From: Pelistega sp.
Lineage (GTDB): Bacteria; Pseudomonadota; Gammaproteobacteria; Burkholderiales; Burkholderiaceae_B
DNA length: 64,000 bases
Assembly (NCBI GenBank): GCA_030538255.1
Contig: JAUNUI010000006.1
Span: forward strand, 62,001-126,000
Direction of reading: 5' to 3'
Under the pieces are notes generated by a model that was not told the DNA's origin, searched no databases, and saw only the letters and a list, made by a program, of their open reading frames with translations. Below are positions 55 to 17,770 of the stretch, in pieces. Position 1 is the stretch's first letter. Each line of letters starts with the position of its first letter. The translations under genes were made by a program, and so were the position numbers.

Positions 55-927
55 ATGTTCTTAAATAAAATTACCACACTTGCTATTTCTCTCCCTTTGC
101 TACTTGCCGCCACAGGATGTGCTACCACGGATCTTTCTCACACATACGATCCTAAAAAAAGCAAAGCCTTAAATATTGCTGATATGGGTGGCTTAGTCAC
201 TGGAATCGGTGACGCAGACATACCTAAAGACTCCACAGGTGCATTAACAGACTCTACTGCCTATGCCGCACTATCTGGCTATGTAGGAACGCTCACAGCC
301 CCTACTATCGGCGTAAACCCCCTCACAGGGGGTTTAATGGGCTTCTTCTCTATGTTAGCCACGCCAAAATCACATGGTGCTAGAAACTCTTTCTTTGCCT
401 TTATGCCAGCATCGGAAGCTGGTAGTCCTGATCAGGCAAGAGTAAAACTAAAAGAACATTTGACACTTTCCTTTCAAAAGACTTTGGTTGATTTTAATTT
501 GATGGATAAAGTAATTGGCTCTAATCCAAATGCACCTGACGATTATGCTATATATTTTGAAAAGGCTGAATGGGGATGTCCTAAATATGCAGAAACTAAA
601 TCACAATTAGATCTTTGTAGGATATTAATTCGAGTTAACAAGCCTGCTTTGTTAAATAATACGCCTCAAACAGACTGGCTTATAAAAGATAATCAATTTT
701 ATTATTTCTCAGGTTCTGGCGATCATTTTTATAATGACGTACATTTCAGTCTACAAAAAACAGCAAAACCACCTACGAAAAAAATGTTTACTCAAATGAG
801 TAAACACTTACCTGCTTGGGTCTACATTTATGTAGCCCCCAAGAAAAGTCTTGATGACGAAGGAAAACCTATTTCATTTCCCTATCTTTTAAATCAAGGG
901 AAGATGGAGTATTTTATTAAGCCCTAG
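55..927 (+). CDS. putative outer-membrane lipoprotein, unknown function
   Basis: The 290-residue product starts with a type II signal peptide: a short basic N-terminus, a hydrophobic core, and a lipobox LAATGC with Cys22 as the expected lipidation site. It is therefore probably anchored in the inner or outer membrane, facing the periplasm. After the lipobox there is a glycine-rich, weakly hydrophobic stretch (about residues 75-100) and a mixed alpha/beta region. I do not recognise the family. A possible ribosome site (AAGG) lies about 7 bases before the ATG. The gene stands alone upstream of the cmr operon, with 330 bases between them, so a link to CRISPR function is not shown. Base use is AT-rich like the cas genes that follow. 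Confidence 0.75.
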   Translation: MFLNKITTLAISLPLLLAATGCATTDLSHTYDPKKSKALNIADMGGLVTGIGDADIPKDSTGALTDSTAYAALSGYVGTLTAPTIGVNPLTGGLMGFFSMLATPKSHGARNSFFAFMPASEAGSPDQARVKLKEHLTLSFQKTLVDFNLMDKVIGSNPNAPDDYAIYFEKAEWGCPKYAETKSQLDLCRILIRVNKPALLNNTPQTDWLIKDNQFYYFSGSGDHFYNDVHFSLQKTAKPPTKKMFTQMSKHLPAWVYIYVAPKKSLDDEGKPISFPYLLNQGKMEYFIKP

Positions 928-1187
928 GTGATTTAATCACATAGTTAGTCCAATTTATACTGATGTAAGAATTGTCCCTCCTAGATGGCCTGTGCTTACT
1001 CTATGGGTATAAGATTAATTGCAAGTCAATATCCAAAGTGTTAGGGGGGATTATTGGTTTTATTATTACTGTTTGTGCTAAGTAAAATATCTTTATGTTT
1101 TTATTAATTTGTAACTTAATGCGTGGTACTATTCAGAAGTTATATTTAATAAATAAGAATATATTAAGTTCTAAATGATATTTTCAA

Positions 1188-1231
1188 ATTGCTTTAGCTT
1201 GCTTTTTTCGGTCAATGCAAGCTAGAGCAAT
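1188..1231 (+). promoter_or_regulatory. 15-bp hairpin in the leader of the cmr operon
   Basis: Arms at 1188-1202 and 1217-1231 pair over 15 positions with one G-U wobble, around a 14-base loop. The hairpin ends 27 bases before the cmr1 ATG, just ahead of its AAGGAG ribosome site. The only T-run is inside the loop, so it is not a normal intrinsic terminator on either strand. It could be a repressor operator or an RNA element in the leader; the function is inferred only from position. Confidence 0.5.
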
Positions 1232-1258
1232 ATATTTAAAAGAAGGCAAGGAGTCAAA

Positions 1259-2590
1259 ATGACATTTAGTTTTGCATTAAAGAAGCCTAATAAACTTGTT
1301 GCAACCTACGAAATAGTTACCCCTATGTTTATCGGTGATGTGGAACAAGAAGCGACTGCCATTAGTGCTTTAGCTTTCAAAGGAGGCTTGCGGTTTTGGT
1401 GGCGTGCTTTAGTTTGGTCAGAAATTCGTAATAGTATATTGAATAATAATAATGCCTTAAAGGAATTGCATCGACGAGAAGCCGAGTTATTTGGCAGCAG
1501 TGCAAATAATGACAAGAAGAAAATTTATGGCAAAGGGCGCCTACAGATAAGTGTCTTGCATAATCCACTGAAAACAACAAATAAAGGTGTAGTTCACCAG
1601 GAATTTGCTAACTGTAAAGCTGCTCGATATTTGGGTTATGGGGTTATGGAAGCATTTAATCGTCAAGGAGGCACAATTAGAGCAGGACAGCTAACAAGAT
1701 CATGTATTAACGAAAATCAAACGTTTCAAGTTGAGTTGAATAGTGCCGAAGAATTTGATAAAACCTTGATTTCTGCTTTGAAATTAATGGGTTTACTGGG
1801 TGGATTAGGTAGTAAAGCACGTAAAGGTTTGGGCAGTATTTCTTTAGTTTCGTTAAGTTTGCTTAATGGTAATGAAAGTCAATTATGGCAATCGCCTAAG
1901 ACATCAGCTGAATATATGAGCACGGTACAAGAACTACTCAAACGAATATCTATTAATGAGCAAGCACCGTTCTCTGCTTTTACCAATAACACAAAGATAT
2001 GGCAATTAGTTGACTCACAAAGAAATTTATATGTGGTTTTGGATAACTATGCTGTGCAATTAGTAAAGTATAGAAGCTGGGGAAATAACGGTAAGGTATT
2101 TGGTAAGGATGCAGAGAGGAATTTTAAAGATGATCATGATTGGTTCAAAGGCAATGAAAATCTAATAAGTACAACGTTTCACCCCCCAAGAGCTATGTTT
2201 GGCCTACCGCATAATTACTTCACAAAGGAAGGAGAAGCTAAAAGAGAGGCTTTAGTCGAATGGGGAACTAATACAAACGAAAAGAAAAACGAGAATGGTA
2301 GGAGAGCATCACCACTCTTTTTCCATGTACACAAGCTAAGTGGGGAAAATAAGCAATATATTGGCATTGCATTTTTACTAAAGGCTGACTTTTTAGATGG
2401 AGCAAAGCAAAAGGTTTTGTTAAATCAATTTACTGAAAGAGATAAAAGAAAACGCTTTATTGTGGAAAATAAAACCGTTCCCCTAAAAGAGGACTGGTCA
2501 GTTATTGAAAACTTCATCAATGGCCAAGAGACGAATACGGGTAATGTCCGTTTCCCACAGAAGAAACAGATTTTTCCATTTAATCAATAA
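1259..2590 (+). CDS. cmr1: type III-B CRISPR RAMP protein Cmr1
   Basis: Cmr1 is the RAMP (RRM-fold) subunit that caps the 3' end of the crRNA-Cmr complex and contacts target RNA. The 443-residue product opens with the family's typical N-terminus: a beta-strand, then TPMFIGDVEQE, then FKGGLRFWWRAL, the conserved Cmr1 signature. A glycine-rich RAMP loop (LGGLGSKARKGLGSI, about residues 180-195) follows. An AAGGAG site 5 bases before the ATG supports this start. It is first in a tightly spaced operon with cmr2 to cmr6, 11 bases before cmr2. Function is inferred from family motifs and the complete neighbouring set. Confidence 0.93.
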   Translation: MTFSFALKKPNKLVATYEIVTPMFIGDVEQEATAISALAFKGGLRFWWRALVWSEIRNSILNNNNALKELHRREAELFGSSANNDKKKIYGKGRLQISVLHNPLKTTNKGVVHQEFANCKAARYLGYGVMEAFNRQGGTIRAGQLTRSCINENQTFQVELNSAEEFDKTLISALKLMGLLGGLGSKARKGLGSISLVSLSLLNGNESQLWQSPKTSAEYMSTVQELLKRISINEQAPFSAFTNNTKIWQLVDSQRNLYVVLDNYAVQLVKYRSWGNNGKVFGKDAERNFKDDHDWFKGNENLISTTFHPPRAMFGLPHNYFTKEGEAKREALVEWGTNTNEKKNENGRRASPLFFHVHKLSGENKQYIGIAFLLKADFLDGAKQKVLLNQFTERDKRKRFIVENKTVPLKEDWSVIENFINGQETNTGNVRFPQKKQIFPFNQ

Positions 2591-2601
2591 GGTAAAGTTT
2601 T

Positions 2602-4512
2602 ATGTCTAATACTACTGATCAATATTTTCACTTTACCCTAGGTCCAGTACAAGGTTTTGTCGCACAAGCTCGCCGCACACGTGATTTTTGGGCAGGTTCG
2701 TTTTTGCTTTCTTGGTTAGCAGGAATAGCAATTAAAGCGGTAGAAAAACAAAATGGTACGATTCTATTTCCTGAAGCAGACGAGAGTTTTTTAAAATTTA
2801 TTTCTGGTAAAGGGCAAGGGTCTAAACCATTACAAGGCAGTATTCCGAATCGATTTAAAGCAAAAGTTCCTGCTGGTTTTAATGCCAGTTTAGTCGTTGA
2901 CTCAGTCCAACTTGCTTGGAAAGCACTTGCTGAAAAAATTTATCAAGCTGATCGAATATCGGAGTATGAGTTACCTGGAACGCGTGCTATTTGGGATCGT
3001 CAAGTAAATAATTTCTGGGATATGAGTTGGGCCTTGGTAGATGAGGAGGCAATATCTAATGTGCTGGATCGTCGTAAAAATTGGCGCAATCTCTATACGC
3101 CTAATGAGGCTGGTGTGAAATGTACTTTGATGCGTGACTGGCAAGAGTTATCAGGTGTAGAGGGAGTACGTAAAACGGATGCTAAGGAACGTAATGAATT
3201 TTGGGCGAATCTTGCTAGAGGTAAAGAAACTGACTTTAAAAGCAATGAATACTTATGCTCGATGGCGTTTATTAAGCGTCGATTTGTACATCATTTTGCA
3301 AGTTTTAAAGCTGATTTACCGACAGGGATATCGGTACATGGTTGGGAGGTGCCTAAATCTGTACCGTCAGTGTCTTACCTAGCAGCGGTACCTTGGTTTG
3401 CTAAGGTCTTAAATAAAGTAAATAAGGGGATATGTAATCCAGATGTGCTAAATAAGTTTGTGGATGCTGCTAGTGATTTGGTTTCATTGAATGAGTATTC
3501 GAGCAAAATCAGATCTTTGCAGGAGCAAATTAATGAGCCTCATGTCAGTAAAAGGGTGATAAGTGTCGATGGTAATGTATTTCATGAGTCAACACTTGAG
3601 AATATCAATATCTTTCCAGACGTGTCCTCGTCTTCTAAAGTTAAATCCGCCTTGAAAAATTTAGCTAAAGAAGCGAAAGTAGGTCCAGTGTCGCCATTCT
3701 ATGCTGTGCTTATGATGGATGGTGACAGCCTAGGTAAACATATGGGTCATCAGCAAAAACAAGTGGTGATTACTAAGGCATTGGATGCATTTACGAAACA
3801 AGTCCCAGATTTAGTTAGTCAAAACAATGGGTACCTGATCTATGCAGGTGGAGATGATGTGCTCGCCTTAGTGACTTTAGATGATGCCTTGAAGTGTGCT
3901 TTGGCGATTCGTGAAGCCTATATATCTGCCTTTAAAGAACAGACAGATAAAGTGAATATTGAAGATAATGAGTTTAAACCTACAATTTCTGCAGCCATTA
4001 GTTATGTCCATATTCGTACGCCTTTAAGTAATGTTCTGCATGATAGTCATGAGTTGTTAGATGATGTGGCCAAGTCGTATGCTGGGCGTGATGCGATTGC
4101 TGTTCGAGTATTGAAACCAGGTGGTGTTGCTTTGACTTGGGCTAAAAAATGGGAATTAGCAATCAACAAAAGACGTGATGATATGCACATCAATGATCTT
4201 GTTAATGACTTTATCAGTGAAGACAAAGATGATGAACAGTTTTCAAATAAGTTTTTCTATCGAATCCGTGAACGATTTTCTATGTTAGATGAGACGGAGT
4301 CAACGCTGAATAAAGACTTGAAAATTGATTTATTAACAGTTGATTATTGTCGATCAAAAGATAATAAGGTTGATTTCGAGGCGGCACGTCAAAAAGTGAG
4401 TAAGTTACTTGAGCAATGTATATCACCTAAAAAAGATCATCAAATTGATATCGATGGTGCACTATTTGTACGATTCTTAGCGCAAAAAGGCATTGAAGGA
4501 GGCCGAGTATGA
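2602..4512 (+). CDS. cmr2: Cas10-family large subunit Cmr2, HD domain absent
   Basis: Cmr2/Cas10 is the large subunit of type III-B complexes; its Palm domain makes cyclic oligoadenylates when target RNA is bound. The 636-residue protein starts directly with the Cmr2 N-terminal motif (FTLGPVQGFVAQARRTRDFW). The Palm cyclase has MMDGDSLGKH at 371-380 and the catalytic GGDD at 416-419. Many Cmr2 proteins are about 800-900 residues with an N-terminal HD nuclease. Here there is no room for one, and no HD motif is visible before the Palm. The protein should therefore signal but probably not cut DNA. Its stop codon overlaps the cmr3 start by 4 bases, suggesting translational coupling. Confidence 0.94.
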   Translation: MSNTTDQYFHFTLGPVQGFVAQARRTRDFWAGSFLLSWLAGIAIKAVEKQNGTILFPEADESFLKFISGKGQGSKPLQGSIPNRFKAKVPAGFNASLVVDSVQLAWKALAEKIYQADRISEYELPGTRAIWDRQVNNFWDMSWALVDEEAISNVLDRRKNWRNLYTPNEAGVKCTLMRDWQELSGVEGVRKTDAKERNEFWANLARGKETDFKSNEYLCSMAFIKRRFVHHFASFKADLPTGISVHGWEVPKSVPSVSYLAAVPWFAKVLNKVNKGICNPDVLNKFVDAASDLVSLNEYSSKIRSLQEQINEPHVSKRVISVDGNVFHESTLENINIFPDVSSSSKVKSALKNLAKEAKVGPVSPFYAVLMMDGDSLGKHMGHQQKQVVITKALDAFTKQVPDLVSQNNGYLIYAGGDDVLALVTLDDALKCALAIREAYISAFKEQTDKVNIEDNEFKPTISAAISYVHIRTPLSNVLHDSHELLDDVAKSYAGRDAIAVRVLKPGGVALTWAKKWELAINKRRDDMHINDLVNDFISEDKDDEQFSNKFFYRIRERFSMLDETESTLNKDLKIDLLTVDYCRSKDNKVDFEAARQKVSKLLEQCISPKKDHQIDIDGALFVRFLAQKGIEGGRV

Positions 4513-5690
4513 GTCAGCAATGGACGGTGAAATTCTCTCCAGTCGATACATGGTTTTTCAAAGAATCACGGAATATGGATGATAGTGGTGCGATTCTGAT
4601 GGAAAGCTTATTTCCTGCATCAATTAAAACCTTACTAGGAGCAATTCGTACCTATATTGGCAACGAGCGGCAAATTGATTGGTCAAACTTTAGCGCCGAT
4701 TCTGAATTTGCCAAAACGATTGGTTATGGTGAGCATGATTTGGGAGCCCTGGTATGTAATGGTTTTAGTCTAGAGAAGAATGGCGAGTCCCATTATGCAG
4801 CCCCACTTAACCTTGTTAGTAAAGATGGAATGTATGAATTCTTTGAAATTGGTCAAGCGGTACAAACAGATTTAGGTTTTTGTCGCTTACCAGAGATGAA
4901 AACTGTGGGGGGTAAGCCGCTAGAGAATCATTATTTGAGCAAAACTGATTGGGAATCTATATTGAAGGGTAAGCTACCTAGCTCAAGCATCGCTAAAACT
5001 CATACACAATTGCCTGGGGATCGCAAGAAATCAGATGTTATTTTAGTGAATGAACCACGCCTTGGTATTGCACGCAATAATCAGACGGGTAGTGTGATTC
5101 AAGGTATGTTATATCAGACAGAGCATTTGCGTTTGCAAGAAGGTTGGAGTATGTCTTTGCAGCTTCAAAGCAGCTTACCATTATTCGAAAACCAACAATC
5201 TAGCGATCTCATTCGCTTGGGTGGGGAAGGGCGTTTAGCGCACGTGGAGTTTAAACAAGCAGCGGCTGAACTTCCAGCAAAAGTGAGTGTTACACAGAAT
5301 ATGCTAGGGGTAATTATTTATTTGCTAACACCCTTGCCTGACCAAAGGGTTGATAATCAATTACCAGTCTTGCCTTTTTCTGATGTAAAGGTCAGTCAAT
5401 CTTCACAAACTCAGGCGCTTCAATGGGAAGGTTCTGTGGGTGACTTGAAGATTAAGGTTATAAGTGCCGTAGTGGGTAAGTCAATTCGTTTAGGTGGTTG
5501 GGATATGAAATTACATAAATCTACACCTGTACGCAGCTTTGTGCCTCCTGGTAGCTGTTGGTATGTTCAGACAGAGAGTCAAGAGCAAGCGCAACAGATC
5601 ATTGATGGTTTGCATGGTCAGTTTTTGACGTCTGGGATAGAACGGCAATATGGATATGGACAAGTGTTTGTCGGATTATGGCTTAAATAA
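4509..5690 (+). CDS. cmr3: type III-B CRISPR RAMP protein Cmr3
   Basis: Cmr3 binds the 5' handle of the crRNA and pairs with Cmr2 at the base of the Cmr complex. The 393-residue protein has the Cmr3 N-terminus: a strand followed by FSPVDTWFFKESRNMD, with the typical D-x-W/F-F-x-E/D-x-R pattern. SLFPASIKTLLGAIRTY (about 34-50) and a glycine-rich C-terminal segment (SGIERQYGYGQVFVG) follow. The ATG overlaps the end of cmr2 (ATGA) and is preceded by GGAGG. Identification rests on motifs and its place between cmr2 and cmr4. Confidence 0.92.
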   Translation: MSQQWTVKFSPVDTWFFKESRNMDDSGAILMESLFPASIKTLLGAIRTYIGNERQIDWSNFSADSEFAKTIGYGEHDLGALVCNGFSLEKNGESHYAAPLNLVSKDGMYEFFEIGQAVQTDLGFCRLPEMKTVGGKPLENHYLSKTDWESILKGKLPSSSIAKTHTQLPGDRKKSDVILVNEPRLGIARNNQTGSVIQGMLYQTEHLRLQEGWSMSLQLQSSLPLFENQQSSDLIRLGGEGRLAHVEFKQAAAELPAKVSVTQNMLGVIIYLLTPLPDQRVDNQLPVLPFSDVKVSQSSQTQALQWEGSVGDLKIKVISAVVGKSIRLGGWDMKLHKSTPVRSFVPPGSCWYVQTESQEQAQQIIDGLHGQFLTSGIERQYGYGQVFVGLWLK

Positions 5691-5723
5691 GGTTTAAATT
5701 TTCAAAGAATATTGGAGAAAGTA

Positions 5724-6617
5724 ATGACGAGTAAATTATTAGGTTTGTATGCGCAAACGTCTATTCATGCAGGTGCTGGACAGAACCAGGGAGTTGTCGA
5801 TTTACCTATTATGCGGGAAGAGCATAATGGTTGGCCGTGCATATTCGGTTCAGCAATGAAGGGAGCGATCCGAGCCGCATATGAAAAGAATAATAGCAAT
5901 GGTTCAAATAGAAGTGTAGAGGATATTTTTGGTAAGGCGGCAACGGATGAAAGCTATGCGGGAGCTTTGATGGTAAGTGATGCTCGTTTATTGCTATTAC
6001 CAATCCGCTCATTAACAACTCAATTTCGCTGGGTGACATGTCCAGATGCCTTACGTCGTTTAAAGCAAGATGCAGAGCGATTTGGCATAAAGTTAGATTT
6101 TGATATGCCAGAAATTACTAGTCCTGACAATGTACTTATCCATAGTGCTGAAACATCTGATAATAATCAGAGTTTGTACCTTGAAGAGTATCGACTAAAA
6201 ATTGAGAATACTGATTTCTCAAAATTAATCCATATACTATCATCGTTATCTGGTCGAGCCGAAAGTGATCTTGGAGCGCAGCTAGCTGTGGTGAGTAATG
6301 ATAATTTCACTTTTTTCGCTGAGCATTGTACCCCTGTTAATGCTCATATTGCATTAGACTCCGCTACGAAAACAACCCTTAACGGTGCTTTATGGTATGA
6401 GGAAACGCTACCACCTGAAACCTTAATGTATTTAGGCTTGTATGCCCAGGATGCGCGCAAAAAACAAGATACAACTTTGCTTGCATCAACCGTGTTGGAG
6501 AGTGTTTTAGATGGCTTAAAGTCGGCCTCATCAGACAAGCTTTATCTACAAGCTGGTGGCAATGAGACAGTAGGTATGGGTTGGTTTGCAGTACAAGAAT
6601 TAAAACAGGAGGTTTAA
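5724..6617 (+). CDS. cmr4: type III-B backbone RNase Cmr4
   Basis: Cmr4 forms the repeated backbone of the Cmr filament and cuts target RNA at 6-nt steps through a conserved aspartate. I start at ATG 5724 (297 residues) because GGAGAAA lies just before it; an in-frame TTG at 5712 lies inside that ribosome site. With this start the sequence QGVVDLPIMRE places the catalytic-type aspartate at residue 26, as in characterised Cmr4 proteins. GSAMKGAIRAAYE follows, and a glycine-rich ETVGMGWF segment lies near the C-terminus. RNA cleavage activity is thus likely intact. Cmr5 follows 3 bases downstream. Confidence 0.93.
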   Translation: MTSKLLGLYAQTSIHAGAGQNQGVVDLPIMREEHNGWPCIFGSAMKGAIRAAYEKNNSNGSNRSVEDIFGKAATDESYAGALMVSDARLLLLPIRSLTTQFRWVTCPDALRRLKQDAERFGIKLDFDMPEITSPDNVLIHSAETSDNNQSLYLEEYRLKIENTDFSKLIHILSSLSGRAESDLGAQLAVVSNDNFTFFAEHCTPVNAHIALDSATKTTLNGALWYEETLPPETLMYLGLYAQDARKKQDTTLLASTVLESVLDGLKSASSDKLYLQAGGNETVGMGWFAVQELKQEV

Positions 6618-6620
6618 ATT

Positions 6621-6983
6621 ATGTCGATTCAGACAGTAAGCCAATTAAGGGCTGAAGATGCTTTAAAACAACTAGGTGATGGAGCATTAAGCGAGATATT
6701 TGTTTCATACATTCAGCAATTACCTGTCATGATTCATCAGAATGGTTTAGGTCAGGCTGTGGCCTTTTATAAATCTAAAGGTGATGAGCATCTGAAAATT
6801 TATAATATTCTAAAAAATTGGTTATGCAAAGAGTCTAAAATTTTTGGTGCTGACAGGGCTAACAGTGATTTATTAAAGAATATTGTTGAAACAGATATGG
6901 CTAATTACCGTATGGCACAAAGTGAAGCGCAGGCATATCTGTATTGGTTGCGACATATTGCCAAGTCTAAGCCTAAAAAGTAA
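6621..6983 (+). CDS. cmr5: type III-B small subunit Cmr5
   Basis: Cmr5 is the small helical subunit that lines the target-RNA side of the Cmr filament. The 120-residue, predicted all-helical product has the usual length and features: an N-terminal RAEDALKQL helix, a VMIHQNGLGQAVAFYKSKG segment, and a C-terminal AYLYWLRHIAKSKPKK helix ending in basic residues. An AGGAGG site precedes the ATG. It sits between cmr4 and cmr6, its normal position. Confidence 0.93.
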   Translation: MSIQTVSQLRAEDALKQLGDGALSEIFVSYIQQLPVMIHQNGLGQAVAFYKSKGDEHLKIYNILKNWLCKESKIFGADRANSDLLKNIVETDMANYRMAQSEAQAYLYWLRHIAKSKPKK

Positions 6984-6993
6984 GGAGGTCGCA

Positions 6994-8238
6994 ATGAAAC
7001 TACCCCTCTATAAGAATTCTTCACATGATATCAATGATCTTATTCCAACAGATGATAAAAATTATGGCTTGCTTTTTGAGCGATTTTTTAATCATTATTA
7101 TGATGAGCAAAAGCCTAATGGATCAGACTGGGCGATCATTACAAACGACAGTGTAGATTCTAAAGGCGATTTTTTAAAAACTTTTAAGGGAAAAGCCTGT
7201 GGGAGCTCTCATGATATACAACGATACGCTGAGAATCAGTACAACCTGGTGGAGTCTCTAGGAGGTCTGTCGCTTGAGTTTGAATTGTCTAGTCATTTCG
7301 TCACTGGAACAGGTAATGCACATCCTGTTGAGAATGGCATGCTTTGGCACCCAACATTAGGAGTTCCTTACCTTACAGGATCACAAGTTAAAGGTATGCT
7401 TCGTACTGTAGTAGAACAATATTTTGACGGCTCATCAGAGGATAGGGACGCTCTTCTTATCGATTGGTTTGGAAGTAAATTAAAAGACTCAAAGAATCCA
7501 AAGAGTATGTTTTATAGCCAAGAGAAACAGGCCGAACTAAGTTCTCAAGCAGGGCGCTTTATTTTCTTTGATGCGATACCTGTGGATAGTGTCCAGTTAG
7601 GTGTTGATATTATGACGCCACATATGGGGGGCTGGTACGCCGCTGACTTTTTCCAACAAGATAGTCCTATATCTCATGAAACATTACCTGCTGATTGGCA
7701 TTCGCCCATACCGATTAAATTTTTAGTCGTTAAAAAGGCACGCTTTCTTGTAAGTATTGCTCCTCGTACTGCGGGTCAAAATCTAAGTACAGCTATTCAA
7801 GAGGCCAGCTTACAGCAGTTGATTGAAACATTACAGTATGCCTTATCGCTTGCAGGCGCCGGAGCTAAGACGCAAAACGGTTATGGTCAAATGAGTGAAG
7901 TCAAGAGTGGTTTTATTGATAAAATTTTAGAAAAAAATCAAGAATTGAGGAGAAGCCAAGCCATGGCGTTGATGTCGCCTGTGCAACAGCAGCTTACGAT
8001 AATAAGTGAGTTGTTGAGTACTATCACAAGCCGCCAGGCGGTTGGTAGTGAAAAATATCAAAAAATGATTGATCTCATAAAAACACTCTCTGAAATACCA
8101 TCAGATACATATAAACCTGACGATAAAATAATGGCACAAAAACTTCTTGCTCTCAAGAATCTAGAGAGTTATTTTAATTTAAATAAAAATCAATATAGAG
8201 ATAAAATAAAGCCGCATATAGAAAGTCTACTTGCCTAA
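6994..8238 (+). CDS. cmr6: type III-B CRISPR RAMP protein Cmr6
   Basis: Cmr6 is a RAMP subunit near the 3' end of the crRNA in the Cmr complex. The open frame extends back to 6883, but TAAGGAGGTC lies just before ATG 6994, so I choose that start (414 residues). The family motif TGTGNAHPVENGMLWHPTLG and the G-S-x-V-K-G-M-L-R-T helix are clear. A glycine-rich AGAGAKTQNGYGQM loop lies around residues 285-300. The last roughly 120 residues are a lysine-rich helical extension beyond the RAMP core. Confidence 0.92.
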   Translation: MKLPLYKNSSHDINDLIPTDDKNYGLLFERFFNHYYDEQKPNGSDWAIITNDSVDSKGDFLKTFKGKACGSSHDIQRYAENQYNLVESLGGLSLEFELSSHFVTGTGNAHPVENGMLWHPTLGVPYLTGSQVKGMLRTVVEQYFDGSSEDRDALLIDWFGSKLKDSKNPKSMFYSQEKQAELSSQAGRFIFFDAIPVDSVQLGVDIMTPHMGGWYAADFFQQDSPISHETLPADWHSPIPIKFLVVKKARFLVSIAPRTAGQNLSTAIQEASLQQLIETLQYALSLAGAGAKTQNGYGQMSEVKSGFIDKILEKNQELRRSQAMALMSPVQQQLTIISELLSTITSRQAVGSEKYQKMIDLIKTLSEIPSDTYKPDDKIMAQKLLALKNLESYFNLNKNQYRDKIKPHIESLLA

Positions 8239-8267
8239 TTTTTTAAGTTTTTATTGGATAGGATGCA

Positions 8268-9467
8268 ATGGCTATTGATTCATTAATTAGTTTTTTAGGG
8301 AAATCTGTGACAGGGTATCGCAATGCGACCTATCATTTTGATGACGGTTATCAAGTTTCGGTACCATATTTTGGTTTAGGCTTAGTGCAAAAAATAAAAC
8401 CGAAACGACTTATCTTAGTAGGCACGCCAAGTAGTATGTGGGATGTTTTCTTTGCCGATCAAAATAATCAAGATGATGCACTTCTAAGTGAGTTGTTTGA
8501 AGCCAGTCATTCAGGAACAGTAGATGAGAATTTATTGTCTAAGTGTTCTGATGTACTTGAAGAGCAACTCGGTTGCGAGGTTGTCAGTATTCTCATTGAG
8601 TTTTCGAAAGATGAGCGTGAACAAGTGGCTTTGTTGGCTAAATTATCTGAGGTAATTGCAGACAATGAGACACTAGCAATTGATGTAACGCATTCCTTCC
8701 GTCATCTACCAATGTTGGCCATGGTTGCCTCTCGTTTTTTAGAGAAAACACGCAACATCAGTACTGAGTCAATCTATTATGGTGCGCTTGAAATGACTGA
8801 TCCCATAACGAAATTAACGCCTGTTATTGAGTTAAATGGTTTGTTAAAAATGTTAGATTGGGTCGATGCATTAGCGAGTTTTGAGAAGAGTGGTGATTTT
8901 TCAGATTTTACTTCGTTATATGAACGAGAGGGATTAAATCAATTAGCCGGGCTTCTTGAACAAGCCTCTTTTTATGAGAGAACCAATCAGATTGCTCAAG
9001 CGAGAAAACCTTTGCAAGCGTTTTTAGCTCAAGAGGCCAATGCTAGTCAATCACCGATTATTGATCTTTTCAGTCCAGGCATAAGAAAGCGTGTCGAATG
9101 GGCTCAAGAGGCAAAGATTAGTGAAAGGCAAAGCAGTGTTGCGATGTACTACTTAGATAAAGGTGATTATTTAAGAGCGGCTACTTTAGGCTATGAAGCT
9201 GTCCTGACTAAAATTATTCAACAACAACCTGGAAATTCAGACGTTCAAAATTATTCTGTCCGGGAAAAAATTAAAAATCAAATTAGAGATAAGTCTATTG
9301 TTTTGTCACCCGAGGAATTGGCCTCTTTAAAGAATTTAAGTAATACGCGTAATGCGCTTGCCCATGGATCCCGCTCCACTGATGGGACTATTCAAAAGGC
9401 AATGAGTACAGAGAAAGAGCTACGCGATTTTCTTGCTGAAGCATTAGCGCAACTAAATAAAATATAA
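8268..9467 (+). CDS. Csx1/Csx2-type (TM1812 family) CARF-HEPN ancillary ribonuclease
   Basis: Proteins of this family sense cyclic oligoadenylate made by Cas10 with an N-terminal CARF domain and then degrade RNA with a C-terminal HEPN domain. In this 399-residue protein, VTGYRNATYHF and KRLILVGTPSSMWD are typical of the CARF N-terminus. DVTHSFRHLP at 139-148 is the DxTH-type signature of the TM1812/Csx2 group. The C-terminal half is helical and carries RNALAHG at 361-367, an R-x4-H HEPN catalytic motif. It lies 29 bases after cmr6 with its own weak ribosome site. Activator ring size is not readable from sequence. The effector role is inference from family and context. Confidence 0.88.
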   Translation: MAIDSLISFLGKSVTGYRNATYHFDDGYQVSVPYFGLGLVQKIKPKRLILVGTPSSMWDVFFADQNNQDDALLSELFEASHSGTVDENLLSKCSDVLEEQLGCEVVSILIEFSKDEREQVALLAKLSEVIADNETLAIDVTHSFRHLPMLAMVASRFLEKTRNISTESIYYGALEMTDPITKLTPVIELNGLLKMLDWVDALASFEKSGDFSDFTSLYEREGLNQLAGLLEQASFYERTNQIAQARKPLQAFLAQEANASQSPIIDLFSPGIRKRVEWAQEAKISERQSSVAMYYLDKGDYLRAATLGYEAVLTKIIQQQPGNSDVQNYSVREKIKNQIRDKSIVLSPEELASLKNLSNTRNALAHGSRSTDGTIQKAMSTEKELRDFLAEALAQLNKI

Positions 9468-9557
9468 CTATTTATAATCATCAGATTTAAATTAATCTTT
9501 AAAAAACATATTGCCACTGTTCGGCGCTCTACGAATAGGATGAGGATAATTAATAAT

Positions 9558-9851
9558 ATGACAATCTACTTTATCACCCGCCATGCGGGCGCTGTGGAAT
9601 GGGCTAGGCAACAAGGCTTGGCTGTTGACCAGATGCTCTCTCATCTGGATATTCAAAACTTACAAGAAGGGGATACTGTCATTGGTACATTACCCGTGCA
9701 TATGGTGGCTGAGTTAACCAAGTTAAGTGTGAAATACTTACACTTAACCATGGACTTGCCAGAGCACTTGCGTGGTAAGGAGTTGAGTGCTGCTGATATG
9801 CAAGAAGCAGGGGTATTCTTGCAAGCTTACCAAGCCTGCAAAGTTGATTAA
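9558..9851 (+). CDS. csx16: CRISPR-associated protein Csx16 (putative ring nuclease)
   Basis: The 97-residue product matches the Csx16 family from its start (MTIYFITRHAGAVEWARQQG) through HLDIQNLQEGDTVIGTLPVHMVAEL and the YLHLTMDLPEHLRG segment. Csx16 accompanies type III systems and has been proposed to cleave cyclic oligoadenylate, switching off the effector RNase. Two in-frame ATGs exist, at 9540 and 9558. I use 9558 because family members start at this strand and GAGG lies 12 bases before it. It follows the CARF-HEPN gene by 90 bases. The ring-nuclease role is family-level inference; the assignment itself is firm. Confidence 0.87.
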   Translation: MTIYFITRHAGAVEWARQQGLAVDQMLSHLDIQNLQEGDTVIGTLPVHMVAELTKLSVKYLHLTMDLPEHLRGKELSAADMQEAGVFLQAYQACKVD

Positions 9852-10199
9852 GTGCTTGTAGAATAGTAGTGACTTTAAGCTATTCGCGCATGGCATAAAG
9901 CAGACTGCAGTTCGACGGTATGGCGTTAAGTGACAAAACTACTTCTTTATATCATATGAGATTTTAAATGCGATCTCCTCATGTTTGATGAATAATGAAA
10001 GTGTTATTTTGAATTTGAAATTATATCGCTGAAAGTTCATATTTGCTTAATGCCGTATGATTTGTTAGCAAATTTAGAGATGGGCGTATTTTGAAACGGG
10101 CATAATGCCAGAAAATTTATGTGATTTATGGCGCACAGTTAACAAACCTTGATATTGAAATTAAGCTGTGGGCGAAGAGGATTTAGGCTAGTAGACGTT
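9852..10199 (+). other. intergenic stretch inside the CRISPR island, no gene or array seen
   Basis: These 348 AT-rich bases lie between csx16 and the membrane-protein gene. I looked for regularly spaced direct repeats, as in a CRISPR array, and found none. No terminator with a T-run was seen, so read-through from the cmr operon to cas6 remains possible. An in-frame TTG at 10149 could extend the next gene, but it has no ribosome site. Confidence 0.5.
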
Positions 10200-10703
10200 A
10201 TGAAATTCATTAAGATTATTGATCAACATCCATGGAAAACTTTTATTGCTGTGAGCATCATTTTTGCGTTGCTCTGTTGGTTTTTATGGGAGTATGTTAC
10301 GCGTTTTAGTACTGTAATTGACGTAGTGACCATCTGGTTTGCGGGTGCAATTATGCTTATTTCTACGATTAACTACTTAAGAAATAGATCGAAGAAATTG
10401 TTAGATATGGAGGAGGTGAAAATTATTCTTCAAAATGGTGAGGATGTAAATTCAAAAAAAGAACTTGCTCAAACTATCATACGTTCAAATTTGACACGTG
10501 CTGAGTTAAAGGGATGTCTCAGAGACTGCCATAAGGTTAGTGGTGATTTTAATATTCCTTATCTTGGACAGAGAGCTTTTTCTCAAAATTTGTTGGACGC
10601 ACAACAAGGAAAAACCAACTCGGTACTTATTATATTAGAGGTGCCCAAGGCCTTAGGCAATAAAAAGCCTACCGATAACTTTATCACCTGTGAACTTAAA
10701 TAA
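10200..10703 (+). CDS. small two-helix membrane protein in a type III-B locus, unknown family
   Basis: The product (167 residues from ATG 10200; an in-frame TTG at 10149 would add 17) has two hydrophobic segments separated by a short loop: about residues 12-31 (FIAVSIIFALLCWFLWEYV) and 39-57 (VVTIWFAGAIMLISTI). A basic stretch (YLRNRSKK) follows, then about 110 hydrophilic residues predicted as mixed helix and strand, with the segments ELAQTIIRSNLTRAELKGCL and FNIPYLGQRAFSQNLLDAQ. By the positive-inside rule, the C-terminal domain should face the cytoplasm. I do not recognise the family and see no CARF, HEPN or nuclease motif. Its place between csx16 and cas6 makes it a candidate membrane effector or sensor of the Cmr system; this is inference from context. 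Confidence 0.7.
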   Translation: MKFIKIIDQHPWKTFIAVSIIFALLCWFLWEYVTRFSTVIDVVTIWFAGAIMLISTINYLRNRSKKLLDMEEVKIILQNGEDVNSKKELAQTIIRSNLTRAELKGCLRDCHKVSGDFNIPYLGQRAFSQNLLDAQQGKTNSVLIILEVPKALGNKKPTDNFITCELK

Positions 10704-10737
10704 TGTATGTCCTTTTTCTTGCATATATGAGTCAAAC

Positions 10738-11682
10738 ATGAACCACAACCTCCCAACCCAACTCCCACTCGCTCGCTACCGCTTCGACTTTACCATTACT
10801 CGTCGTCTTGAGCTTGCCGAGTATGCAGGCTCAGCCTTGCGTGGAGCTTTCGGTCATGCACTAAAGCGCTTAGCCTGTATAAATACAGAACAAGAGTTAT
10901 GCAACACATGCCTAATGAAGCAAAGTTGTCATTATGCGCATATTTTCGAGCCGCCTATTTTGCAAGAAACTGGCTTGCATAACTTGAATAAGATTCCAGC
11001 GCCTTATGTGATTGAGCCTCCACCTTGGGGCGAGTATACGTATGAAGTAGGACAGGTATTTAGTTTTCATATGGTATTGATGGGGGAGCAAGCGATCGGG
11101 CTTTTACCTTTAATTTCTTTAGCGTGGTCTCATGCATTCAATATGGGAGTTTCGGGTGGTCAGGGTATATTGAACGATATTCTCTATTGTCCTGCCGATG
11201 CGCAAGCGTATAGTATTCTTAAAAATCAAAAATTAGTTGAGCATCTCGCTACTGTCAATGTGCCTGCGGATTTGCCCAGTGAGATTGTGTTGAGCTTTGT
11301 GACTCCCTTACGTCTTCAAAGTAATGGAAAGGTACTTAATCAGCATACGATTAGTGGCTCTGCCTTATTGATGCAATTACTGCGTCGAGTATCCTTGGTT
11401 GCTGGGCAATATTGGCAGGCTCCGATGCAGGGTGATTTTGCTCAGCTCAAGGCGCAGGCTGTTCGTATTCCCAATCAGCATCTGCTTCAGTGGCAAGATT
11501 GGCAACGTTATTCAACCAGGCAAGAACAATATATGCACTTGGGGGGTGTTGTCGGTCATTGGCAATTTAAGGAGTTAGACTCATTATGGTCGTCTTTATT
11601 CTTTATAGCGCAGTGGTTGCACTTGGGGAAGAATGCTTCGTTCGGCTTGGGTAATTACACTTTGCATTCATCGCCTAATTAA
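10738..11682 (+). CDS. cas6: CRISPR repeat endoribonuclease Cas6
   Basis: Cas6 cleaves the CRISPR precursor transcript within each repeat to give crRNAs for the Cmr complex. From ATG 10738 the protein is 314 residues. An upstream in-frame GTG at 10690 would overlap the previous gene and adds residues unlike the family. The N-terminus (ARYRFDFTITRRLELAEYAGSALRGAFGHAL) is the classic Cas6 entry into the first RRM fold. A cysteine cluster (C-x2-C-x5-C, about residues 55-64) may bind metal, as in a known Cas6 subgroup. The C-terminal half contains the glycine-rich loop LGKNASFGLGNY. The gene ends the cas cluster, 22 bases before a strong terminator. The presence of Cas6 implies a functional array somewhere outside this window. 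Confidence 0.88.
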   Translation: MNHNLPTQLPLARYRFDFTITRRLELAEYAGSALRGAFGHALKRLACINTEQELCNTCLMKQSCHYAHIFEPPILQETGLHNLNKIPAPYVIEPPPWGEYTYEVGQVFSFHMVLMGEQAIGLLPLISLAWSHAFNMGVSGGQGILNDILYCPADAQAYSILKNQKLVEHLATVNVPADLPSEIVLSFVTPLRLQSNGKVLNQHTISGSALLMQLLRRVSLVAGQYWQAPMQGDFAQLKAQAVRIPNQHLLQWQDWQRYSTRQEQYMHLGGVVGHWQFKELDSLWSSLFFIAQWLHLGKNASFGLGNYTLHSSPN

Positions 11683-11703
11683 ACTTCAAGCTAAATTTTG
11701 AGC

Positions 11704-11732
11704 GCACAAGCATTAAGTGTTTGTGCGTTTTC
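11704..11732 (+). terminator. intrinsic terminator after cas6
   Basis: A 10-bp stem (CGCACAAGCA paired with TGTTTGTGCG, one G-U) encloses a TTAAG loop and is followed by TTTT. It lies 22 bases after the cas6 stop and closes the CRISPR island. Confidence 0.75.
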
Positions 11733-11882
11733 CATGTCTTAATATAAATCCCCATTGACAATAAATATCAAGCTCCATCTTTAATAATAAATAAGCACTA
11801 TTTATTGTAATAAAAGTCATATAAAGCGTCTAAATAAGACAACTTACATAGAAATGTCATGATGAAATGGTACAATAACGAC

Positions 11883-11981
11883 AGTTCCAGGTGCTGGGTT
11901 TAGAATCAAGTGAATTGCTTGCTTCTAGGGTTAATACGCAACGCCAAGGTTAATATTTTGTGCCAGTAGGGCACTTTTTTA
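11883..11981 (+). promoter_or_regulatory. structured leader with attenuator-like terminator before the CoA-transferase gene
   Basis: Downstream of a TACAAT -10-like box (11871-11876), the leader holds a small CCAG/CTGG hairpin (11887-11897), a 10-position hairpin with one mismatch (11901-11910 with 11918-11927), and a GTGCC/GGCAC hairpin (11960-11974) followed by six Ts. The last element is a typical intrinsic terminator, but it lies only 19 bases before the start codon of the next gene. This layout fits a riboswitch or attenuator. I do not match it to a known class. Confidence 0.5.
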
Positions 11982-11999
11982 TTTTGCGAAGATGGACAT

Positions 12000-13520
12000 A
12001 TGACAAAACACTCTAGAATTAAATGTGCAGCATTGTTAGACCGTATTATGAGCGCCGAACAAGCGGCTGAGTTGATCGCATCGGATGTGAATGTTGGTAT
12101 GAGTGGTTTTACGGGTTCAGGTTATCCGAAAGAGGTGCCTGTGGCGTTAGCGAAACGCATTCGCGCTGAGCACGATAAGGGTAATCCATTTAAAATTAAT
12201 GTGTGGACAGGTGCATCAACAGCTCCTGAGCTTGATGGTGCCTTGGCTGAGGTTGATGCCATCGGCATGCGCTTACCTTACCAATCTGACCCAGTTGCAC
12301 GTCGTAAGATTAATACGGGTGAGATGGAATATATGGATATTCACTTATCGCACGTGGCTCAACATGCCTGGTTTGGCTTTTACGGTAAGTTAGATATTGC
12401 GATTATTGAAGTGGTGGGTATTCATGAAGATGGCACCTTAATTCCTGCTGCCTCAGTGGGTAATAATAAGACCTGGATTGATCGTGCAGATAAAGTAATT
12501 CTTGAAGTGAACTATGCGCTGAATGAAAAACTTGAGGGTATGCATGATATCTATTATGGTACAGAGTTGCCTCCTCATCGTAAACCAGTGCCGATTGAAC
12601 ATGCGGAAGAGCGTATCGGTTTGCCATACTATCTATGCCCACAAGAGAAAATTATCGCAATTGTGGAAACCAATGGCCAAGACCGCGTGAACAAATTCAC
12701 TGAGCCTGACGAGGGTTCGAAGAAAATCGCTTCTCACATCATTAACTTCTTAAAGCAAGAAGTGACTAAGGGTGTGTTACCACCGAACTTACTACCAATT
12801 CAGTCGGGTGTAGGCAATATTGCGAATGCAGTATTGGCGGGCTTGAACGAGGGTGATTTTGAAAATCTAGTCTCATTCACCGAAGTGATTCAAGACGGTA
12901 TGCTAGAGATGATTAAGTCGGGCAAGATGGTGCATGTGTCGGCAACCTCACTTTCTTTGAGTCCTGAAGGCATTAAAGAGTTAAATGACAATATCGACTT
13001 CTATCGCGATAAGATTATTCTACGTACACAAGAGATGAGTAACCACCCTGAAGTGGTGCGTCGTCTAGGAATTCTCGCGATTAACGGCATGGTTGAAGCG
13101 GACATCTACGGTAATGTGAACTCTACTCACGTGATGGGTAGCGATATTATTAACGGTATTGGCGGTTCTGGTGACTTCGCCCGTAACGGCTATATCTGTT
13201 TCTTCGTACGCCCATCGATTGCCAAGGGCGGTGATATATCTGGTATCGTACCAATGGTCTCACACGTTGACCATACTGAGCATGACACACAGATTCTTGT
13301 CACTGAGCAAGGTCTTGCCGACTTACGTGGTTTATCACCGCGTCAACGTGCGAAAGTCATTATCGAAAACTGTGCGCATCCTGACTATAAAGATGAACTA
13401 CGTAGTTACTTTGAGCGTGCTTGTGAAGAAGCCAAAGGTCATACGCCACATATCTTGTCTGAGGCATTAAGCTGGCATGATCGCTTCCGTAAGACGGGCT
13501 CTATGAAGAAAAAGGACTAA
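12000..13520 (+). CDS. acetyl-CoA hydrolase / succinyl-CoA:acetate CoA-transferase family protein
   Basis: Class I CoA-transferases of this family move CoA between acetate and succinate or hydrolyse acetyl-CoA, linking acetate use to the TCA cycle. The 506-residue length matches. Motifs visible are GMSGFTGSGYPKEVP near the N-terminus, the substrate-loop GVGNIANAVLAGL, and SFTEVIQDGML with Glu295 at the position of the catalytic glutamate of AarC-type enzymes. NGIGGSGDFARNGYI lies in the C-terminal domain. The gene is monocistronic: a structured leader lies before it and a terminator lies after it. I do not give a symbol because the family splits between hydrolase and transferase activities that cannot be separated here. 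Confidence 0.88.
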   Translation: MTKHSRIKCAALLDRIMSAEQAAELIASDVNVGMSGFTGSGYPKEVPVALAKRIRAEHDKGNPFKINVWTGASTAPELDGALAEVDAIGMRLPYQSDPVARRKINTGEMEYMDIHLSHVAQHAWFGFYGKLDIAIIEVVGIHEDGTLIPAASVGNNKTWIDRADKVILEVNYALNEKLEGMHDIYYGTELPPHRKPVPIEHAEERIGLPYYLCPQEKIIAIVETNGQDRVNKFTEPDEGSKKIASHIINFLKQEVTKGVLPPNLLPIQSGVGNIANAVLAGLNEGDFENLVSFTEVIQDGMLEMIKSGKMVHVSATSLSLSPEGIKELNDNIDFYRDKIILRTQEMSNHPEVVRRLGILAINGMVEADIYGNVNSTHVMGSDIINGIGGSGDFARNGYICFFVRPSIAKGGDISGIVPMVSHVDHTEHDTQILVTEQGLADLRGLSPRQRAKVIIENCAHPDYKDELRSYFERACEEAKGHTPHILSEALSWHDRFRKTGSMKKKD

Positions 13521-17196: not shown

Positions 17197-17475
17197 ATGA
17201 TTAAATCCTTTAAACACAAAGGCTTACAAAAGTTTTTTGAAACGGGAAGCACTTCAGGCATACAAGCTAAGCATGCGGCAAGATTGGGTGCTCAGTTGCT
17301 TTTGCTTAATACTGCAAAAAGTCCTAAAGAGCTTAATATTCCGAATTGGCGTTTACATCCATTAGGAGGTCGCTTAAAAGGTCACTGCTCCTTAGTTGTT
17401 AATGCCAATTGGCGACTAACATTTATGTTTGATGGTGAAGATGTATTTATTGTGGACTATCAAGATTATCATTAA
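17197..17475 (+). CDS. higB: HigB-type toxin of a type II toxin-antitoxin system
   Basis: HigB toxins are RelE-fold ribonucleases that cut mRNA on the ribosome. The 92-residue protein has the family's pattern: IKSFKHKGLQKFFETG at the start, HAARLGAQLLLLNTA, then NWRLHPLGGRLKGHCSL and NWRLTFMFDGEDVFIVDYQDYH at the end. Toxin-first order, an antitoxin gene 10 bases downstream, and an operator overlapping the promoter are all standard for higBA. Confidence 0.92.
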   Translation: MIKSFKHKGLQKFFETGSTSGIQAKHAARLGAQLLLLNTAKSPKELNIPNWRLHPLGGRLKGHCSLVVNANWRLTFMFDGEDVFIVDYQDYH

Positions 17476-17485
17476 GAGGTAAAAA

Positions 17486-17770
17486 ATGAAGATGTATAAC
17501 CCACCACATCCAGGTGTTATTGTGAGAGACTATCTGGAAGGAATTACCGTAACTGAGGCCGCCAAGCACTTAGGTATTACGCGTACAGCTTTGTCTCGTA
17601 TTTTGAATGGGAAAACTGGCATTTCGCCAGAAATGGCCTTGCGGTTAGAAGAGGCGTTTGGGGCGACAAGTGCGCAAACATGGTTGGCCATGCAAGCTGA
17701 GTATGATCTTTGGCAAGCTCAGCAACATCGTCAATATGTGGTTGAGCCATTTGGGTTTGCTGCGGCTTAG
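17486..17770 (+). CDS. higA: HigA-type antitoxin, HTH XRE family
   Basis: HigA neutralises HigB and represses the operon. The 94-residue protein opens with NPPHPGVIVRDYLEG, the HigA/VapI-type start. A helix-turn-helix follows (VTEAAKHLGITRTALSRILNGKTGIS, about residues 23-48), then EMALRLEEAFGATSAQTWLAMQAEYDLWQA. AGAGG lies 8 bases before the ATG. It is co-transcribed with higB. Confidence 0.93.
   Translation: MKMYNPPHPGVIVRDYLEGITVTEAAKHLGITRTALSRILNGKTGISPEMALRLEEAFGATSAQTWLAMQAEYDLWQAQQHRQYVVEPFGFAAA

Follow-up and report, generated by a model that had tools for sequence, protein, structure and literature searches.

The window analysed here, 64,000 nucleotides of a Pelistega sp. contig (JAUNUI010000006.1, assembly GCA_030538255.1), carries a type III-B CRISPR system that looks complete. 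Its genes cmr1 to cmr6, cas10, csx1, csx16, csx23 and cas6 all lie on the plus strand. The genes of the effector complex, namely cmr1, cas10, cmr3, cmr4, cmr5 and cmr6, occupy positions 1259–8238 and were assigned by NCBIfam, PADLOC and Pfam; cmr3 falls under the NCBIfam cut-off and over that of PF09700. The cas10/cmr2 gene (2602–4512; TIGR02577, E 3.9e-41) retains an intact GGDD cyclase motif at residue 416. The csx1 gene (8268–9467; TIGR02221, E 1.9e-52; PADLOC CARF2-HEPN, E 1.1e-127) encodes a CARF-HEPN ribonuclease of the TM1812 family, a second predicted effector, with the HEPN-type motif RNALAH at residue 361. The csx16 gene (9558–9851; TIGR02620, E 9.4e-30, over cut-off) encodes a predicted ring nuclease for cyclic tetra-adenylate (cA4), that is, an off switch; it possibly starts at 9540, from where the TIGR02620 scan began. 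The cas6 gene covers 10741–11682 (PADLOC Cas6, E 1.4e-82; PF10040 over cut-off), with an alternative in-frame GTG at 10690.

The system extends just upstream of the window, where a CRISPR array is located; it counts 26 repeat units, of which the final one is degenerate. A CARF gene of the NE0113 or "ring nuclease Csm6" family (L005:3883-5034, contig G000:C33; TIGR02584, E 2.8e-73) stands at the start of the CRISPR locus, and cA4 may therefore be degraded by two proteins of the system. Two cas2-like genes (L005:5131-5415 and 6713-7021), the first under the NCBIfam cas2 cut-off, flank cas1 in the same cas2-cas1-cas2 layout as in an Aeromonas media plasmid locus. More Cas1-family matches were observed elsewhere in the genome, at G000:C21:49763-50410 (split in two, with a stop codon inside one piece) and 105854-106591. 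Additionally, the window contains a small toxin-antitoxin-like pair at 17197–17770, of the HigB/HigA type by the appearance of its open reading frames.

The csx23 gene spans 10200–10703 on the plus strand, from ATG to TAA, and encodes 167 residues; this start is not certain, because translation from an in-frame TTG at 10149 would yield a protein of 184 residues. Upstream it is separated from csx16 by a 348-bp gap, in which the open reading frames lying wholly inside reach at most 33 codons, while cas6 starts 37 bp downstream. Family profiles confirm that the gene lies in a type III-B locus with csx16 and cas6 on either side, as an earlier note on this DNA had stated, and in agreement with the same note no terminator-like site was found on the forward strand between the two genes; over 900–12100, the two strands together carry 5 such sites, where 7.5 would be expected.

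The encoded protein has two predicted transmembrane segments (10230–10379, plus strand; residues about 11–35 and about 36–60), as indicated by hydropathy and by a helix at residues 11–68 in an AlphaFold2 model. The Kyte-Doolittle profile peaks at 2.13 over residues 15–33 and at 2.12 over residues 39–57 (19-residue means). Two hydrophobic windows (mean at least 1.8) turned up in 182 of 10,000 shuffles that kept the composition; on its own the hydropathy is thus suggestive, and the main weight lies on the family match. About 100 residues follow both segments, with no hydrophobic window above 1.4; the hydropathy thus bears out the two segments plus soluble C-terminal domain described before, at a length slightly below the roughly 110 residues first estimated. 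This domain (10401–10700, plus strand), which matches the Csx23 profiles by itself, is expected to bind cA4.

Assignment of the protein to the Csx23 family

The protein looks unrecognised, as the earlier note had it, because NCBIfam gives no match at E ≤0.1 and every Pfam match stays below cut-off; PHROGs likewise gives no match at E ≤0.1. In contrast, a search of PADLOC-DB at E ≤0.1 returned two models, both of them Csx23 (PDLC01550, E 7.1e-14; PDLC01072, E 8.1e-11), and both are already part of the 2023 version of that database. As a guard against a hydrophobic artefact, the protein was split in two for the profile search. The soluble part alone (10401–10700) matched PDLC01550 at 2.3e-12 and PDLC01072 at 1.7e-8, while the membrane part alone (10200–10400) had no match at E ≤1. 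Judged from these sequence matches, it is the soluble domain and not the hydrophobic part that drives the assignment, and the domain goes to Csx23 rather than to a known unrelated family.

Csx23 of Vibrio cholerae is a tetrameric membrane effector with two predicted N-terminal helices, and its C-terminal domain binds cA4 through a fold unrelated to CARF; pulse EPR showed that cA4 perturbs the transmembrane region, and no change in permeability was seen (PMC11014256). The V. cholerae HE-45 protein (PDB 8QJK) and the Pelistega protein have in common a type III-B locus and two N-terminal hydrophobic segments, the two-helix membrane domain of the latter being indicated by hydropathy and AlphaFold2 only; the soluble domain measures 91 residues in V. 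cholerae and about 100 in Pelistega. As far as the available parts of the sources tell, Cam1, Cap1 and Csx23 are all proteins of type III systems that join membrane helices to a cytosolic sensor of cA4. The sensors of Cam1 and Cap1 are described there as CARF or CARF-like, whereas no CARF model is found among the PADLOC matches of Pelistega Csx23 at E ≤0.1. The CARF-like fold that had been proposed for the domain is therefore not indicated, since the Csx23 domain is itself unrelated to CARF (PMC11014256).

Taken together, we assign the product of 10200–10703 to Csx23, within a type III-B CRISPR system that lacks none of the expected genes, at a probability of about 0.92. As read from its profile matches, the Pelistega protein is a genuine but divergent and rare member of a family already described, and no new component. 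The earlier proposal of a new membrane effector of the Cas10 signal consequently stands in one part and falls in the other: the effector role fits by homology, because the protein matches a described cA4-gated membrane effector, while the novelty is lost to the published family (PMC11014256). A new family of membrane effectors, whose sensor domain would be CARF-like or of another kind, could be read from the empty NCBIfam search and the lack of a Pfam family over cut-off; the Csx23 profile matches of the whole protein (7e-14) and of the soluble part alone (2e-12), together with the missing CARF profile, make it highly improbable.

Structure models add little to the Csx23 assignment. The AlphaFold2 model from the single sequence contains one helical region, residues 11–68, while the soluble domain is not modelled with confidence (mean pLDDT 51.9; 43.4 for a second model). 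For the soluble domain, the secondary structure is given with low confidence as strand-strand-helix-helix-strand, an order that agrees with the description of 8QJK as two strands, two helices, a third strand and a short helix (PMC11014256). Foldseek and VIA searches of the PDB with this weak model gave no significant match, and 8QJK was absent among the best 50 listed by each. In sequence searches of the PDB with Pelistega Csx23 alone, 8QJK was absent from one, which gave one chance match, and from the best 60 of 173 matches in another, most of them ankyrin-repeat or DARPin chains by name; an ankyrin or DARPin identity was rejected, because about 25 residues had been matched to one repeat after another. 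With a two-sequence profile of the Pelistega protein and its Arcobacter homologue, 8QJK came sixth (E 0.011), after a DARPin and four calmodulin chains; the calmodulin matches were treated as chance.

Rarity of Csx23 and a homologue in Arcobacter

Genome searches recovered the window's own copy and nothing else: it was the single match of the Pelistega query among 61 relatives, and the single match of PDLC01550 among 369 genomes of the class, 398 of the phylum and 399 of the order, these sets overlapping. The family thus appears rare, consistent with its presence in 4 of 1113 type III loci according to the available part of a published survey (PMC11229360).

Against 72,556 plasmid records, tblastn with Pelistega Csx23 gave one match, on plasmid pACLO of Arcobacter cloacae (E 6e-4), and the Arcobacter protein in turn found itself only in the plasmid collection. 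Neither Pelistega Csx23 nor the 8QJK fragment matched the phage collection by tblastn. The only plasmid match of the 8QJK fragment, in Rhizobium (tblastn E 0.9), was treated as chance; a three-sequence profile found nothing on the fetched stretch of that almost unannotated record. In viral contigs, no relative was confirmed by scans with Pelistega Csx23, the Arcobacter protein, the three-sequence alignment or the 8QJK fragment, and two DNA patterns had 0 matches. In genome contigs, 0 of 12 candidate stretches from the alignment scan were confirmed, and a DNA pattern had 0 matches; this pattern follows the Vibrio/Arcobacter loop length and would miss Pelistega csx23. These collection scans had no positive control and thus give no measure of Csx23 rarity.

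The Arcobacter csx23 gene (119 residues; L003:9878-10237) and the gene preceding it (133 residues; 9459-9860) lie within NZ_CP053834.1 73009-73787. The Arcobacter and Pelistega proteins are identical at 32 of 87 aligned positions (pairwise E 3e-12), the former matches the same two Csx23 profiles at 1e-24 and 2.7e-16, and its best solved-structure match by sequence is 8QJK (E 0.018). A weak PHROGs match (E 0.0033) that would suggest a holin covers only the hydrophobic segment, residues 6–37, and was rejected.

The gene order in Arcobacter is csx20, the 133-residue membrane protein, csx23 and cas6. This type III-A locus continues downstream with csm genes and a TM1812 CARF gene, and genes of type I-B precede it. 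With csx20 two genes upstream and cas6 directly downstream, this slot parallels the csx1-csx16-csx23-cas6 arrangement of Pelistega, the ring nuclease being Csx20 in the former and Csx16 in the latter. Homologues mainly away from type III loci, which the earlier note would have taken as refutation, were not found: the one homologue detected outside the window lies in the type III-A locus, and the published ones are described as type III-associated. Unlike the Pelistega protein with its two hydrophobic segments, Arcobacter Csx23 has one only, with no upstream in-frame extension, and it lacks two short Pelistega stretches (residues about 82–85 and 147–155). Its 133-residue neighbour shows four hydrophobic segments; PADLOC gave no match for it at E ≤0.1 and Pfam none over cut-off, and it may be a separate membrane partner of Csx23. 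Our literature search returned no report on a single-transmembrane Csx23 or on Arcobacter Csx23.

Ligand-binding positions and the expected response

In V. cholerae Csx23, R95 contacts the phosphates and R110 clamps the adenine, and both cA4 binding and immunity depend on the two residues; the R110A mutant lost cA4 binding, R95A had weak affinity for cA5, and F111A showed wild-type activity in plasmid challenge (PMC11014256). According to the available text of that paper, R110 is conserved among Csx23 homologues. Alignment of the solved fragment places R95-A-E on R100-A-E of the Pelistega protein, C105 on C110, F111 on F117 and N-L-L on N-L-L, so that the R95/E97, C105, F111 and N-L-L positions are kept. 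R100, whose codon lies at 10497–10499 on the plus strand, is the equivalent of the essential R95 (L-T-R-A-E against F-S-R-A-E). The second essential arginine is not kept: R110-F111 aligns with D116-F117 (codons at 10545–10550, plus strand), and the loop between Cys and Phe comprises six residues (H-K-V-S-G-D) rather than the five of Vibrio. Arcobacter Csx23 has a lysine at this place and yet matches a family profile at 1e-24, which means that the position does not define the Csx23 profile. The pairwise similarity between Pelistega Csx23 and the solved fragment is weak (E 5e-4; 7 of 5,000 fragment shuffles score as high), and for this reason the loop details carry some doubt. An hhalign comparison of the 8QJK fragment with the Pelistega-Arcobacter profile gave a probability of 78.6 and a single-comparison E of 1.7e-5, with an alignment that spans R95-A-E, C105, F111 and the N-L-L motif.

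The aspartate at the R110 place weakens the case for an identical hold on the ligand. A Csx23 with an altered ligand site, a sub-case of Csx23 membership and no alternative to it, might bind a cyclic oligoadenylate other than cA4, or hold cA4 with a different clamp such as K112. The substituted residue and the longer loop favour such a site, as do the effects of R110A and R95A in V. cholerae (PMC11014256) and the lysine of Arcobacter, by which the position is seen to vary. Nevertheless, the loop alignment is based on three sequences, and cA4 is the likely signal in Pelistega, because Csx16 is a cA4-specific ring nuclease in the available part of a published study (PMC12409355) and Csx1 belongs, by the portions of published work at hand, to a cA4 effector family. 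We consider an altered site unlikely. Less probable again is a non-functional or decaying copy that no longer binds the signal. One essential arginine position is lost, Csx1 alone could carry immunity, and the genome sets of 61, 369, 398 and 399 yielded no close relatives to show selection; against decay, the reading frame is intact with both hydrophobic segments present, the R-x4-R-x-E, C, F and N-L-L positions are kept, and the gene is located among intact cas genes.

For a functional Csx23, the mechanism, including ligand, tetramer, membrane effect and off switch, can be drawn by homology from the V. cholerae protein. Foreign RNA bound under crRNA guidance would turn on the Cas10 cyclase, leading to production of cA4. 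The cA4 molecule would then sit at the centre of the cytosolic Csx23 tetramer, with R100 on its phosphates and the mobile loop over its adenines, and the resulting change would be relayed to the tetramer's eight transmembrane helices, perturbing the membrane and slowing growth or phage production. In parallel, activated Csx1 would cut RNA, and Csx16 would end the response by degrading cA4.

Such an arrangement differs from that in Vibrio, where, in the part of the source available, NucC/Csx23 systems are named as exceptions to the presence of an off switch (PMC12409355), which implies that Vibrio Csx23 systems lack one; the Pelistega locus has both Csx1 and the ring nuclease Csx16. Set against the accessible text of the cited papers, our comparison adds D116 at the R110 place, and Csx23 beside a ring-nuclease off switch in Pelistega and near csx20 in Arcobacter. 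A tentative and rather doubtful generalization would be that Csx23 of this branch does without the Vibrio-essential arginine, using another clamp or ligand, in loci with a cA4 off switch, and that the membrane part is split in Arcobacter between a one-helix Csx23 and a four-helix partner. For a family found in 4 of 1113 loci in the portion of the survey at hand, a divergent non-Vibrio Csx23 that occurs together with a ring nuclease and Csx1 adds a useful example. The Pelistega protein would tell whether R110 is truly necessary for signal binding, and its locus whether such a membrane effector can be switched off with survival of the cell.

Position of csx23 among neighbouring genes

The csx23 gene and the gap upstream of it have a GC content of 35–36%, compared with 45–46% for csx16 and cas6. 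A low-GC inserted cassette is not claimed, as cmr1, cas10, cmr3, cmr4 and csx1 also lie at 37–42% and the sliding GC profile has no sharp island.

Among 200 genomes of the same bacterial family, csx16 occurs in five, Pelistega included. The other four gave no PDLC01550 match at E ≤1, a limit that produced matches in 5 of 14 control genomes, and a constant pairing of csx16 with csx23 was accordingly rejected. In three of these four loci csx16 directly follows cas6, with no csx23; the two genes are not adjacent in the fourth. On plasmids, 13 distinct records matched Cas10 or Csx16; in the stretches taken from 5 of them (Aeromonas, Vibrio aerogenes, Allochromatium tepidum, Photobacterium and Runella), the three-sequence profile found no Csx23. 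The Aeromonas plasmid, which has the best Cas10 match among plasmids, carries cas6 and csx16 with a CARF (DUF1887) gene in between. Given the csx16 loci that do without csx23 and the DUF1887 gene at this place in Aeromonas, csx23 seems to be an optional gene in an exchangeable effector slot.
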